Source: Acidimicrobiia bacterium
GTDB lineage: Bacteria > Actinomycetota > Acidimicrobiia > Spongiisociales > JAHEDJ01
NCBI GenBank assembly: GCA_035471805.1
Contig: DATIPS010000058.1
Span: 65,533-118,075 of the forward strand
Direction of reading: 5' to 3'
DNA: 52,543 nt
Position numbers and translations under genes: made by a program
Notes under the pieces: generated by a model
What the model was told of the DNA's origin: nothing
Databases searched by the model: none
What the model saw: the letters and a program-made list of their open reading frames with translations, nothing else
Shown here: one piece after another, positions 46,684 to 52,543 of the stretch
Position numbering within the stretch: the first letter of the stretch is position 1
Layout of the letters: the number at the start of each line of letters is the position of its first letter

Positions 46684-47601
46684 TTACCCGCCTGCAGGCG
46701 GCGCCACGTCGGTCGGCTCTTCCTCGGCAATCAACCCGCACGCCGATAGTGTCTCTTCGACCGGCGCACCGCCGAACCTGATTCGCTCGAAAGCGGCAAC
46801 CGCCCGGATCTCTTCCTCGCTGAGGTCGGCCTGGAAGCCGGGCATGCCTCCCTGGACCGGCTTGTCCTGGGCGCCGTAGGTACCGCCGAAGTCGACCGAC
46901 CAGCCGTTCGAACCCAGCTCGATCCAGGTGATCTGATCTTCACAGGATGGCCAGGTTTCGAGAACCGCCCCTCCCGACATGGCCGGTCCCGTGCCTCCCT
47001 GGCCGTTCGAGCCGTGGCACGAACCGCACTGGGCGCCGACACCGTAGACCTCTTCGCCGATGGCAAGGAACGAGGCGGCTTCGGCCCCACCCCCTCCGCG
47101 ACCTTCGAACGGTGATCCGTCACAGTTGACGAGTGATCCATCGAAGGCGACCTGAAGTCGGCCGCCTTCGCCGCAGGCGACGCCGTTCGAGTTCACGACC
47201 AGATAGAGCAACCCGAACAGCGGGATGATCAGGAAGGCCGCCACGATCCAGGAAGAGAAGCCGGAGCTCGCGCCGGCCTTTTGCACGGATTCCGCCGGTC
47301 GAACGGCGGCCGCTTCCTTCGGCTCGAAAGCTGTCACGGCCGGCGGCTCGGTCGGGGCAGTCTCGGGTTGGGATTCGACCTCGTCCACGGTTGCGGCGAC
47401 CTCGACGGGTGGTGCGGCTTCAGTGGTGCTGCTCGCCGCCGGTGGGGGCGCCGCAGGTGTCGACCCTCCGCCGGTCCACGCCGCCAGGATGTCGTCGGGT
47501 GTGACACCGGCGGCCGTCGCTCGAGCTTCCGCAGATCTCCGGATCAGAGCCTCGGAAGCTCCGAATTGGCCGGCGAGTGTGGCTAGATGTTCGCTGGTCA
47601 C
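46684..47601 (-). CDS. Membrane-anchored cytochrome c with N-terminal RRSAEARA motif
   Basis: 305-aa protein in three parts. Residues ~14-43 (GASEALIRRSAEARATAAG...DDILAAWTGG) are a helical motif shared with the next gene and with the last gene of the window. A ~65-residue Pro/Ala/Glu linker leads to one membrane helix (~117-137). The C-terminal cytochrome c has CGSCH (C192, C195, H196) and the probable axial methionine in GGMPGF (M253), plus extra cysteines (C143, C160, C220). It occupies the CcoP position after a CcoO-like gene. Start GTG 47601, overlapping the previous stop by 4 bp. Probable role: electron exit from a membrane complex. Confidence 0.85.
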   Translation of the reverse strand: MTSEHLATLAGQFGASEALIRRSAEARATAAGVTPDDILAAWTGGGSTPAAPPPAASSTTEAAPPVEVAATVDEVESQPETAPTEPPAVTAFEPKEAAAVRPAESVQKAGASSGFSSWIVAAFLIIPLFGLLYLVVNSNGVACGEGGRLQVAFDGSLVNCDGSPFEGRGGGGAEAASFLAIGEEVYGVGAQCGSCHGSNGQGGTGPAMSGGAVLETWPSCEDQITWIELGSNGWSVDFGGTYGAQDKPVQGGMPGFQADLSEEEIRAVAAFERIRFGGAPVEETLSACGLIAEEEPTDVAPPAGG

Positions 47602-48380
47602 TTTGATTCCAGGAGGTAGGCAACAATGGATTCGATGTCCCGGCTCGACAGATAGTCAAACGACGGGTGGCTGCTCTCGGGGAAGGCCGCCGGGTCTGTC
47701 AGATAGCCGGTCAGCCGGCTGCCGCTGTCGGTCGGTGCACGTGAGCCGACGTGAGCCAGATCAGGGCCGAGACGTTGAAAACCGGGAACCAGCGGGCTGT
47801 CCGAGAGCGTGACGACGCCCAGATCGGCGTCTGTGACGATCGGCCGGACCTGCTGGGTGTGACAGTAGGCACAACCCTCGGCAAGATAGACCTCGCGGCC
47901 CTGCAGAGCGTCTGCGGACAGCTCGATCCTCTCGACCGCATCGAGCGTCTGGGCGTTGGGAGAGGACGAAGGGGCGACAACCGTCGCGATCAGCATGATC
48001 GCGAAGATGACCAGAGAGCCCAGCACCAGGCTGCCGAGTGATCCGGAGGAGACCGGCTCTGGTTCGCGCAAGGGGGCGGGTGCCTCTTCCTGCCGGGTTG
48101 CGGCCGGTGCGGATGCCTGCTCCTCTGCGGGAGCAGGTGACACCACTGCCTGTTCGGTGACCGCCTCCGGTTTGGGCTCCGGCAGCACCGGTTCCGGTTC
48201 GGGTGGCGCAGCCGGCTCCGGCCGTACCGGCGCGGGCGGCGCCGCGGCACCGGACCAGGCCGCCAGCACCGCGTCCGGAGTTGTTCCCAGCGCGGCAGCA
48301 CGGGCGTCGGCAGAGCGCCGTACGAGGGCCTCCGAAGCGGCGAGCTGTTCGGCCAGGGCGGCGGTCAGTTCGTTACTCAC
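47598..48380 (-). CDS. CcoO-like cytochrome c subunit with N-terminal RRSADARA motif
   Basis: 260-aa protein. Residues ~14-44 (AASEALVRRSADARAAALGTTPDAVLAAWSG) repeat the motif seen in the neighbour, then a long Pro/Glu linker and one membrane helix (~115-135). The heme domain reads GREVYLAEGCAYCHTQQVRPIVTDADLG...RLGPDLAHVGSRAP with C170, C173 and H174, the sequence pattern of the cbb3 oxidase monoheme subunit CcoO/FixO. Ordinary CcoO has no such N-terminal extension. GTG 48380 overlaps the upstream stop by 8 bp. It pairs with the CcoN-like protein. Confidence 0.85.
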   Translation of the reverse strand: MSNELTAALAEQLAASEALVRRSADARAAALGTTPDAVLAAWSGAAAPPAPVRPEPAAPPEPEPVLPEPKPEAVTEQAVVSPAPAEEQASAPAATRQEEAPAPLREPEPVSSGSLGSLVLGSLVIFAIMLIATVVAPSSSPNAQTLDAVERIELSADALQGREVYLAEGCAYCHTQQVRPIVTDADLGVVTLSDSPLVPGFQRLGPDLAHVGSRAPTDSGSRLTGYLTDPAAFPESSHPSFDYLSSRDIESIVAYLLESK

Positions 48381-49806
48381 CGTCGGCCTCCTTGGGAACC
48401 AGGACTTCCTGTGCGACGGGTGAACCGGACGTGACGGTCCGGTATATCAAGTAGCCGTGGGCGAGCTGCCCGCAGAACGTGACCATCACACCGATCAGAA
48501 CCAGGATCTGGAGTATCGAGACGGCACTGAGAGTATGGACGAACCCCTCACCCGTGTTCACATAGGCGCCGCTGTAGTTGCCGCCGGCCCAGGTGAAGCC
48601 GGCCGCCAGCCCCTCGAGCCACAGGGCAATCGAGGCGACCGACACTCCCACGAGCGTGAGGCGCAGATGCCAGGCGGCCGTACCGGTGTCGAAGAGGTCC
48701 CGACCCAGGATGCGGGGCAGCACGGCATATACGAAACCGGCGGTGATCCAGCCACCGATGCCGAACAGAATGAAGTAGGAGGTCCCGTCCCACCATGAGG
48801 TGAGCCCGACGACGGCTGCAACAGACCGGAATCCCGCCAGCGCCGACAGCACGATCGGAACCGGTATGAGCAGAGCGCCGGCCAGGGCGAAGCGAAGGGC
48901 TATTGACCCGCGTATCTCCTCCCGGTGGTCACGGAGGGTGCCTGCAACGTTGATGAAGCTCGTAATGGCCACGACGACCAGCAGAAGACCGAGGACTATT
49001 GCCGTGGTCTCCAGCCATTCGGGGCCCGGGCCGTGGGTGAATCGGGCATATCCGGATGCCCCTCCGGCGAGAGCGAGCGTCCAGAACCCGATCCTGGCCA
49101 GCTGGTCGCTGAAGAGAGCACCCCGACCCGTCAGCTTGGGAGCAAGGTAGAAGACGATGCCGAGTCCGCTTGCCATGACCCACAGGTAGTGGACTGCTGA
49201 AGTCGTGAAGGCGGAGAGAATCGAAACGCCGACCGGTTCGAGCCCGGGAAGACTCGCCGCGGCGGCGATGGCTGGGAGCCAGACCAGGGCGGCCACCACA
49301 TATAGGAGAGCCGACGGCGGTGCATCCGATCGGCGTCTCATCGACGCGGCAACCACGAAAGCAGGAACCGCCAGCGCCACGACCAGCAGGAGATCCGCCC
49401 AGATCGGGAACTCGAAGAGCTCGAAGCCGTCGCCCATTCCGAGGCCAACGGAGAGAGCGCCGACCACTACCACCGCCGCCGTGAACCAGAGGTTCAATCC
49501 GGCCAGCCGGACGTACCGAAGCGGGGCGCCGCTCAGCCGCGGCATGAGGTAGTAGGCGGCACCTATCAGAGTGATGGTCAGCCAGCCGAACACCGCGATG
49601 GCCGTCGCCATCGGCCGGAGTCGGCCGTACGTCCAGAACCCGAAGCCATCCAGCACTCCGGGAAACACCGCTTTGAGAACCTGCACAGTCGTCAGGAAGC
49701 CTGCGACGAGAAGGAATGCGGTTCCAAGGAGCAAGTGCTGGCGGGCGACCGTGTCGCTCGTAGCCGCCGCTCTAGAGGTTGTGCTGTGCTGGGCCTCAGC
49801 AACCAA
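48373..49806 (-). CDS. CcoN-like (heme-copper oxidase subunit I) protein lacking the metal ligands
   Basis: 477-aa membrane protein with twelve or more helices, the length and helix pattern of cbb3 subunit CcoN, and clear motif matches (YGRLRP, FGW, YYLMPRLSG, LGIVFYLAPKLTG, GPGPEWLETTAIV, VLPRILGRD, HLRLTLVGV). At the ligand positions of CcoN it has other residues: low-spin heme His becomes A67, CuB histidines become S203, A254 and R255, and the heme b3/b pair becomes T342 and Y344. So it cannot hold the normal hemes or copper and should not reduce oxygen. Start TTG 49806 (AGAAGGGA upstream). It heads an operon with CcoO-like and cytochrome c genes. A structural scaffold role is my inference. 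Confidence 0.85.
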   Translation of the reverse strand: MVAEAQHSTTSRAAATSDTVARQHLLLGTAFLLVAGFLTTVQVLKAVFPGVLDGFGFWTYGRLRPMATAIAVFGWLTITLIGAAYYLMPRLSGAPLRYVRLAGLNLWFTAAVVVVGALSVGLGMGDGFELFEFPIWADLLLVVALAVPAFVVAASMRRRSDAPPSALLYVVAALVWLPAIAAAASLPGLEPVGVSILSAFTTSAVHYLWVMASGLGIVFYLAPKLTGRGALFSDQLARIGFWTLALAGGASGYARFTHGPGPEWLETTAIVLGLLLVVVAITSFINVAGTLRDHREEIRGSIALRFALAGALLIPVPIVLSALAGFRSVAAVVGLTSWWDGTSYFILFGIGGWITAGFVYAVLPRILGRDLFDTGTAAWHLRLTLVGVSVASIALWLEGLAAGFTWAGGNYSGAYVNTGEGFVHTLSAVSILQILVLIGVMVTFCGQLAHGYLIYRTVTSGSPVAQEVLVPKEADGE

Positions 49807-50086: not shown

Positions 50087-50713
50087 GTGCACCGTCTGAG
50101 CCAACTAGACGATAAGCAAAGGATGCGGCTGGGTTCCGCCTTGTTCTCCGTCGGTCTGTTTCTCCTCGCGTTCGGCGTCTTGTTCGCTCATTACTCCGGA
50201 TTCCCGGAAGGCGAGAAGGTCGACTACTTCGGATGGTTTCCGCGCGGCTGCATGATTGGCTCCGGACGCTGCATTCCGTGGTACTCCGCCGGCCAGCTAA
50301 TTGCGACGGGCGGATCGCAGCTGGGCATCGCAGGCGCCCTTCTCATGTGGGTGGCGAACCAGCGGATGACCTGGGCCCGCGCCGGACTTGCCGCCTTCCT
50401 GGTGTGGATCGAGTTCATCATCATCTTCGGAATCGTCCCGTCGGAGTGGCTCAACTTGAGTCAGGGTCCGCTCGAGATGACCCGTCAACGCATCGCATTC
50501 ACGATTCCCTCATGGCTGGTGCTCGGCAACGAAGTGTCCATCAGCTGGGCTGCAATCAAGGACGCGATCTCCGGTACCTACAACTTGGCCGTCCTGGGTG
50601 GAGTGATCGTGTTCGCCTACAAGATTCAGGGATGGGGCAAGACCGAACCCAAGGCCGCCCGGGCAGCCAAGAGTTCTACCTACGGGCGCCCTCTCACGCG
50701 GGGAGAGCGCTAG
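50087..50713 (+). CDS. Four-helix membrane protein of the respiratory locus
   Basis: 208-aa protein starting at GTG 50087 (ATG 50123 possible). Four membrane segments are visible: LGSALFSVGLFLLAFGVLFA, YSAGQLIATGGSQLGIAGALLMWVA, AGLAAFLVWIEFIIIFGIVP and YNLAVLGGVIVFAYKIQ. Between helices 1 and 2 lies a loop with two cysteines (FPRGCMIGSGRC), and after helix 3 the segment PSEWLNLSQGPLEMTRQRIAFTIPSWLVLG. No known family; no heme-binding pattern is obvious. Its stop touches the ATG of the ferredoxin gene (TAG ATG), so it is probably a subunit of the same complex. Confidence 0.75.
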   Translation: MHRLSQLDDKQRMRLGSALFSVGLFLLAFGVLFAHYSGFPEGEKVDYFGWFPRGCMIGSGRCIPWYSAGQLIATGGSQLGIAGALLMWVANQRMTWARAGLAAFLVWIEFIIIFGIVPSEWLNLSQGPLEMTRQRIAFTIPSWLVLGNEVSISWAAIKDAISGTYNLAVLGGVIVFAYKIQGWGKTEPKAARAAKSSTYGRPLTRGER

Positions 50714-51166
50714 ATGGCTCGTACTGATGCCTGGATCGAAGCCCCTCCGTTCCGCGAGGACTATCAACTGACCCTCGTTGAGACCGATACGCTGCAGAAC
50801 GCGGTCCGCCCCAAGCAGTTCCTGCACATTGACGAGGCCGAATGCATTCTGTGCGAGGGCTGCGTCGACATCTGCCCGTGGAAGTGCATCGTCTACCTCT
50901 CCCTCGCCGCGATCGACGAGGCGCACGGCGTGATGGACCCGTCCGACGAAGAGGGAGCATTCGGGTTCTTCGTGGTCGATGAGGAGGCCTGTACCCGGTG
51001 TGCCTTGTGCATCGACAGGTGTCCGACGAATGTGATCACCCTCGGCAAGTTCGCGGGGTCGGTATCGGCCACCGCCTCCGAGGCGGGCCTCCTCGAGGCG
51101 CCCTGGCAGGTCGACACGGGGCAAAGGGATTTCAAGAACGGTTATGTCTACGGCATCCGCAGGTAA
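50714..51166 (+). CDS. 2[4Fe-4S] ferredoxin-type protein
   Basis: 150-aa soluble protein with two cluster motifs: [11 protein letters not shown] at C44, C47, C50 and C54, and [11 protein letters not shown] at C93, C96, C99 and C103, each followed by proline. The spacer between the motifs is longer than in small ferredoxins (about 39 residues) and there are N- and C-terminal extensions ([12 protein letters not shown]), as in ferredoxin-like subunits of membrane complexes. GGGAGAG precedes ATG 50714. Placed between a membrane protein and cytochrome b6, it probably passes electrons to or from the quinone site of that complex. Confidence 0.9.
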
Positions 51167-51183: not shown

Positions 51184-51972
51184 GTGGCGAACGGCAACGG
51201 CAAGACTGGTTTGCTGAATACGGTGCAAGAGAAGGCATCGGAACTGGGCGATCGCGTGACGAGCAGTCAGGCCTGGGATTCGGTGTTCCGTCCGGGTTCG
51301 CCGTTCAAGAAGGGACATACCGACAGTCCTCGCAACCGGTCCTACGTTGTGATGAACAACGTGCTCTATCACCTGCACCCGGTGAAGGTGAAGCGGCACG
51401 GAGTGCGGCTCTCCTATACGCTCTGTTTGGGTGGCCTGAGCTTCTTTCTGTTCATCCTGCTGACGATCACGGGCATCTTCCTGATGTTCTACTACCGTCC
51501 CACGGCTGAAGCCGCCTATGCGGATGTCGCCGCGCTATCGACGAGTGTCGCCTTCGGGTCGCTGGTTCGGAACATGCACCGTTGGGGTGCGCACCTCATG
51601 GTCCTCACCGTTTTCCTGCACATGAGTCGCGTCTTCTATCACGGGGCCTACAAGCCGCCTCGCGAATTCAACTGGGTCGTCGGAGTAGTCCTTCTGCTGC
51701 TCACGCTTCTCTTGTCGTTCACCGGATACCTCCTGCCGTGGGATCAGTTGGCGCGGTGGGCCGTCACCGTTGGTACCAACATGGCGGGGTTTGTGCCGGT
51801 GTTCGGTGATCAAGTGCGGTTTGCCTTGCTTGGCGCAGCCGACGTCTCGGCCGACACTCTGCTGCGCTGGTATGTGCTTCACGTCCTGTTCCTGCCGTTC
51901 ATCATTGTCGTGTTCATGGCCGTTCATTTCTGGCGAGTCCGGAAAGATGGCGGCATCTCAGGTCCGCTGTAA
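51184..51972 (+). CDS. petB: Cytochrome b6-type subunit of a quinol:electron acceptor complex
   Basis: 262-aa cytochrome b, N-terminal-half type. Heme-b histidines are at H132 and H233, H146 and H248 (14- and 15-residue spacings, the latter the b6 spacing), in [23 protein letters not shown] and [10 protein letters not shown]81 in YTLCLGG matches the cysteine that binds the extra heme ci in b6f and in Firmicutes-type complexes. The end ISGPL and the loop [12 protein letters not shown]...GYLLPWDQ are typical. The ~60-residue hydrophilic N-terminus is unusual. GTG 51184 follows GAAGG. It should oxidise menaquinol with the ferredoxin and cytochromes c as partners. Confidence 0.92.
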
Positions 51973-51982
51973 GGAGCTCCAT

Positions 51983-52543
51983 TGGCCGAGATACCTGAAG
52001 AACTCCTACGGAGATCGGCGGAGGCCCGGGCGGCCGCCACGGGCCTGCCCTTCGACGAGGTGTACGCAGAGATGCTGGCCGCGGTCGGCGGGGCTACCGC
52101 CCTGCCGGTCGTCGAGACGGCGCCTCCCGATGCAGAACCGGAGCATCCGACGCGACTTCCCGAGGACCTCCTCGACCGGGAGGCCGAGGCGCGCGCCAAA
52201 GCGCTCGGAGTCTCCAAAGAAGACGCCGTGGCCGAGCTCAAGGGCGAGAAGAAGCTCGTCATCCCCGCGAGCGAACCTCAGGGGGTCACTCCGGCCGGCG
52301 GGCCGGAGCCGGAATCGGAACCCGGGCCGGCAGAGGAAGCGGCGCAAGCTCCCGTTGAAGCAGCCCCGGCCTCTGCTCCGGCACCGGTGCCGGAACCTGC
52401 TTCTTCCGGTGAACTCGATTACGCGGCGGCCGCCGGTGCTGCCGGTATGCCCGAGAAGTTGTTCAGGCGGAGTGTCGAGGCGAAGGCGAAGGCAAAGGGT
52501 GTGGATCCGGCGGTTGTGCTGGCCGAGATGACCGGCGCAGAGC
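51983..52543 (+). CDS. Protein with three RRSAEARA-type motifs (partial, continues past the window)
   Basis: Starts at TTG 51983 with AAGGAGC six bases upstream and runs 187 codons to the window end. Three motif copies are visible: residues ~4-34 (IPEELLRRSAEARAAATG...DEVYAEML), ~58-88 (LPEDLLDREAEARAKALG...EDAVAELKG) and ~155-185 (MPEKLFRRSVEAKAKAKG...AVVLAEMTG). They are separated by Pro/Ala/Glu linkers. The same motif opens both cytochromes c of the divergent operon. The remaining part may hold a membrane helix and a redox domain (for example cytochrome c or Rieske), by analogy with its relatives, but this cannot be seen here. Confidence 0.75.

Follow-up and report, generated by a model that had tools for sequence, protein, structure and literature searches.

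A CcoN homologue without heme or copper ligands, encoded opposite a b6f-type complex III operon in Acidimicrobiia, is a candidate structural subunit of a respiratory relay

Heme-copper oxidases are defined by six conserved histidines of subunit I, which hold two hemes and CuB (PMC8361435). What, then, is the role of a subunit I homologue whose clade has none of these residues, yet is conserved next to the genes of the principal complex III in actinobacteria not yet in culture? The question arises from a gene at 48373–49806 on the minus strand of a 52,543-nucleotide stretch of DNA from an Acidimicrobiia bacterium, the whole of which we call the window. A preliminary description had reported an intact gene for a CcoN homologue at this position, and the analysis bears this out: the frame is complete and encodes a membrane protein of 477 a.a., here termed pseudo-CcoN, from a TTG start codon preceded by the ribosome-binding-site-like AGAAGGGA. 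The protein matches Pfam COX1 (PF00115) with 100 bits against a cut-off of 34.8, and NCBIfam ccoN (TIGR00780) with 112.7 bits, far below the model cut-off of 583. Its nearest solved relatives by sequence are cbb3 CcoN subunits (E = 1e-19 for the CcoN of 3MK7), and a profile of 37 relatives matched solved CcoN (9G6B/3MK7) with E of about 1e-78, with weaker matches to NorB (1e-11) and to 7deg, an entry named "Cytochrome c oxidase subunit I" (4e-5). As judged from these sequence profiles the fold is CcoN-like, and by descent, through its homology to subunit I, pseudo-CcoN belongs to the heme-copper oxidase superfamily. To the preliminary description we add the strand, a second cytochrome, a divergent complex III operon and the family-wide extent of the ligand loss.

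All six ligand columns are substituted in pseudo-CcoN: the His of RPLH is A67, the CuB His of GHN is S203, the HH pair is A254/R255 and the HxH pair is T342/Y344, while the active-site Tyr column holds Gly. These replacements had been named before, and each was recovered at the named position in three alignments (the first alignment set, the family alignment and the profile alignment to solved CcoN), which agree on a register anchored by the flanking motifs YGRLRP, FYLAPK, PEW and LT. We considered the possibility that H206 or H258 occupies a metal site, and rejected both, as the alignments put each of them three columns away from the closest ligand column, and neither is conserved in the family. 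The six histidines of a functional heme-copper oxidase were found neither in the window protein (0 of 6) nor in its clade: among 42 aligned homologues, a subset of all matches in which the ligand loss was read, His filled 0/252 cells at the six sites, versus 54/54 in nine true CcoN, so that this protein is not a lone degenerate copy among homologues that keep their ligands. The combination of ligands and active-site Tyr that marks the CcoN of a cbb3 (C-type) oxidase is likewise absent from pseudo-CcoN, and no alternative conserved set of histidines was found in the other columns of the family alignment. The residues that are conserved (R62, R90, W242, W264, T336, G387 and G399) are structural ones common to true CcoN.

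The pseudo-CcoN sequences form a single clade (SH-aLRT 98), also after the ligand columns were removed, and a single origin of the ligand loss would be the simplest reading; true CcoN with all ligands occurs, outside the class, in families f69, f70 and f78. A contig-level search for close relatives found one, and the breadth given here comes from a genome-wide search across many genomes, with relatives drawn from within the phylum. A relative of pseudo-CcoN (E ≤ 1e-3) is encoded in 49 of the 59 genomes of the window's order and, in a wider draw of the class, in 98 of 247, a count that takes in weak matches from about 35 genomes of small size (~1 Mb). Ligand-free versions also occur beyond the class, in families f89, f63 and f59 of the same phylum. 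Compared with a congener, the gene differs at codon positions 1/2/3 by 0.24/0.14/0.52, a pattern that shows purifying selection. In addition, the frames of the homologues found are intact, except for contig-edge fragments and one split frame, and the gene is retained in genomes of ~1 Mb.

By its gene overlaps, pseudo-CcoN is translationally coupled to two cytochromes c encoded on the same strand. The gene at 47598–48380, which overlaps pseudo-CcoN by 8 bp, encodes a CcoO-like mono-heme cytochrome c (FixO, 53 bits); its CAYCH agrees with the earlier statement that the operon includes a CcoO-like cytochrome keeping its CxxCH, and corresponds to the mono-heme CcoO partner expected of a cbb3 oxidase. 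The next gene (46684–47601), overlapping the CcoO-like gene by 4 bp, encodes a CcoP-like cytochrome c (Cytochrom_C, 38.3 bits; Cytochrome_CBB3, 32.3 bits). This protein is mono-heme, with CGSCH as its one CxxCH and no significant match to ccoP (E 0.1), and so is not the diheme CcoP of a cbb3 oxidase. Both cytochromes carry a hydrophobic segment of their own and begin with a domain of ~45 a.a. having an RSAEARA core. In about half of the relatives pseudo-CcoN and CcoO are fused. In one genome (G068; L063:9089-11218) a cupredoxin-like domain (FCDVHPTMKG) at the C-terminus of pseudo-CcoN replaces the CcoO fusion, and the CtaC-F (aa3) genes of this genome lie inside the complex III/pseudo-CcoN cluster.

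The divergent plus-strand operon starts with a family-F8 membrane protein without a Pfam family (50087–50713), followed by a 2[4Fe-4S] ferredoxin-like protein (family F4; 50714–51166), a b6-type cytochrome b equivalent to the N-terminal half (51184–51972; NF040969, 308 bits; PF00033, 163 bits), whose GTG start was set by comparison with a congener, and the N-terminal part of a subunit-IV-like protein (family F7; 51982–52543), which starts with TTG after AAGGAG and runs off the end of the contig. Another contig of this genome, C38, holds the remainder of subunit IV, then the Rieske protein, a diheme cytochrome c and F10; its end overlaps the window by 138 bp, although this overlap is itself inside a repeat. 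The operon order is F8-F4-cytb-subunit IV-Rieske-diheme cytochrome c-F10, the last being a small membrane protein. The split cytochrome b, Rieske protein and c-type cytochrome of a b6f-type complex III are thus all encoded (PF00033, PF00032, PF00355 and two CxxCH). Several RSAEARA-type repeats lie in an Ala/Pro-rich extension of subunit IV, and the contig probably stops here because the assembly failed in this repeat.

The back-to-back pairing of the pseudo-CcoN and complex III operons is found at nearly all of ~38 loci of the class, including those of ~1-Mb genomes, and complex III genes are near pseudo-CcoN at three loci of other classes (L163, L164 and L165). In 7 of the 20 pseudo-CcoN genomes checked (G024, G054, G063, G068, G078, G196 and G062), the cytochrome b of this operon is the sole PF00033 protein, and all of these except G196 (70% complete) have a full-score A-type oxidase. 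Two members of the class have the complex III operon but not pseudo-CcoN. Opposite this operon, one carries a CcoP-like gene on its own; in the other, no cytochrome gene of that kind was recognized. Separately, the window's genome has two more cytochrome b operons (G000:C31:31068-36668, L117), one with an eight-CxxCH cytochrome (796 a.a.) and the other beside a 598-a.a. protein starting MEKLHFFDENIPCLAACPVNTNAG, which suggests other quinol or ferredoxin-linked electron routes.

The RSAEARA domain is a possible link between these operons and the aa3-type oxidase. In a search of nine whole genomes, all seven with pseudo-CcoN had the domain on both cytochromes and on subunit IV, and in six of the seven it was also present on a membrane protein whose gene lies no more than about 10 kb from those of aa3; in the seventh (G034), no match was found near the aa3 genes. 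In the two genomes without pseudo-CcoN, there was none in one and one weak match in the other. Genome-wide, the domain is almost confined to the two cytochromes, subunit IV and the aa3-adjacent membrane protein. As it had no match among the Pfam models, its role in docking is one that we infer. In one genome, a 624-a.a. frame (L198; G078:C12) also encodes a protein resembling the alpha subunit of 2-oxoacid:ferredoxin oxidoreductases, with RSAEARA near its C-terminus; perhaps it docks to the complex III cluster, which includes the 2[4Fe-4S] protein. Among genomes of the order that are at least 90% complete, an A-type oxidase is encoded in 38/38 with pseudo-CcoN versus 4/7 without (hypergeometric p = 0.0025, with phylogenetic relatedness ignored); this co-occurrence may mean no more than that each trait is a marker of aerobes. 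In most cases the aa3 operon and the pseudo-CcoN cluster are on separate contigs.

Taken together, we regard pseudo-CcoN as probably a catalytically dead, metal-free structural subunit of a relay from complex III to complex IV. In such a relay, the b6f-type complex III would oxidize menaquinol and pass the electrons through the Rieske protein to its diheme cytochrome. Pseudo-CcoN would fix the CcoO-like and CcoP-like cytochromes in place on the periplasmic side, from where they would deliver electrons to an aa3-type oxidase, encoded at another locus, by way of its cytochrome-c domain, and the RSAEARA domains on the cytochromes, subunit IV and the aa3-linked membrane protein would keep the parts assembled. 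The sequences show the ligand loss throughout the clade, the gene coupling, the fusions, the synteny with complex III, the common domain and the co-occurrence with an A-type oxidase; from these we infer that the parts assemble, that electrons take this route and that pseudo-CcoN acts as the anchor. Gene proximity and a common domain suggest, and do not prove, a complex. Since all of the metal-binding histidines are gone and the adjoining genes are those of complex III, the family is probably a scaffold, not a microaerobic oxidase. The preliminary description had suggested a scaffold, or an ancestral oxidase converted to a different machine. The former gains from the clade-wide loss, the purifying selection and the conserved gene order, although the scaffold role itself is still a prediction. 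The latter holds in outline, and the machine would most likely be the complex III-to-aa3 relay, because the gene is paired with the b6f operon and the domain of its partner cytochromes is also found on complex III and on the aa3-linked protein.

The main rival is that pseudo-CcoN is only a membrane anchor, which tethers the cytochromes as a membrane-bound carrier pool, like cytochrome cy, outside any fixed III-IV supercomplex. Such an anchor would fit the fusions of pseudo-CcoN, whether to CcoO or to a cupredoxin-like domain, as well as the operon coupling with the cytochromes and the mostly unlinked aa3 operon. However, the presence of RSAEARA on subunit IV of complex III and on the aa3-linked protein suggests a fixed assembly, and a protein of 12–13 helices would be a costly tether for cytochromes that each own a hydrophobic segment. 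We therefore consider the anchor on its own unlikely, though a serious contender.

It is less likely still that the old heme cavity now serves another purpose, for example to bind quinone or conduct ions, which would make pseudo-CcoN a new energy-converting module. Purifying selection on the clade and the small residues (A/S/G) that most members have in place of the first heme ligand are compatible with this, but no new conserved polar set occupies the former cavity, and the active-site Tyr column and most ligand columns vary freely: at four of the six ligand sites the variability exceeds that of the median column of the family alignment, and the active-site Tyr column holds G, S, A, W, L and others. 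The same columns bear on the idea that pseudo-CcoN is a reductase after all, with heme or copper held by residues other than His. The retained overall CcoN profile and the neighbouring c-hemes would agree with such an enzyme, but the ligand columns hold A, S, G, V, T, I, L and others with no consistent Met, Cys, Tyr or Lys substitute, and we regard it as highly improbable. A decaying pseudogene of a cbb3 oxidase, although every catalytic residue is lost, is scarcely credible given the near-uniformly intact frames, the divergence biased to third positions and the retention in ~1-Mb genomes, and is rejected for the family on its conservation across classes.

The proposed structural role of pseudo-CcoN may have a counterpart among A-type oxidases. 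A CtaD-like subunit I homologue that has lost most or all of its ligands occurs in G059 (L112:9456-11132) and its relatives, in families f9, f18, f27, f31, f29 and f28 (also loci L121-L135, L146 and L149), near the functional CtaC/CtaD genes in several families of the Acidimicrobiia. Where both were located, its gene lies 4 to 5 kb upstream of a functional CtaD, and the ligand-free CtaD-like protein and pseudo-CcoN were not seen in one genome of the sampled set. One further CtaD-like protein (L148; G118:C44) keeps three of the six histidines (sites H R A G H H), with the CuB ligands lost, and is a possible intermediate of decay. A bolder reading, which we offer tentatively and would sooner doubt than assert, is that a wide range of actinobacteria, genome-streamlined ones included, assemble a III-IV supercomplex on a heme-free protein of the oxidase family, with a dedicated docking domain of ~45 a.a., and that in further families of the class this role falls to the ligand-free CtaD. 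Respiratory scaffolds would then have arisen from dead oxidase subunits on at least two occasions.

Family-level annotation labels pseudo-CcoN genes as cbb3 subunits and hence predicts microaerobic respiration; metagenome claims of cbb3 in Acidimicrobiia (e.g. PMC8357290) therefore need a check of the ligands. In open-access PMC full text we found no description of a ligand-free CcoN. A study of UBA5794 genomes gives cytochrome c oxidase and bd oxidase as absent from 12% of them (PMC12008989), and its passages matching our keywords do not mention a CcoN-like protein. Should the proposed role be correct, an oxidase core would be reusable as a respiratory scaffold, and these organisms would offer a testable layout for electron transfer from complex III to aa3.

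Among the closest known systems is the cbb3 CcoN/FixN subunit (3MK7, 5DJQ): it shares with pseudo-CcoN full-length profile homology, CcoO-like and CcoP-like partners in equal order, and the motifs GRLxP, FW, PxW and T336. Unlike it, pseudo-CcoN lacks the six metal-binding histidines and the active-site Tyr, is only about 25–30% identical, and sits with complex III genes. The obligate bcc-aa3 III2IV2 supercomplex of Mycobacterium and Corynebacterium (PMC8361435) resembles the present system in its actinobacterial phylum, menaquinol chain and diheme cytochrome in complex III, as well as in the direct III-to-IV wiring, which is here proposed from gene-level evidence. It differs in that the complex III of the window is b6f-type, with a split cytochrome b and a 2[4Fe-4S] protein, and in that pseudo-CcoN and two mono-heme cytochromes are added. 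We know of no scaffold derived from a heme-copper oxidase in the mycobacterial supercomplex. CydB of cytochrome bd is a heme-free relative alongside functional respiratory subunits, which pairs with a heme-bearing subunit of the same family in one enzyme. It is an analogy only, as a heme-free relative is kept in both cases and the folds are unrelated. A further parallel is the ligand-free CtaD-like protein, also a heme-copper subunit I homologue with its ligands mostly or wholly lost and encoded beside a functional aa3 operon, which differs from pseudo-CcoN in being A-type instead of C-type and in belonging to separate families of the class.
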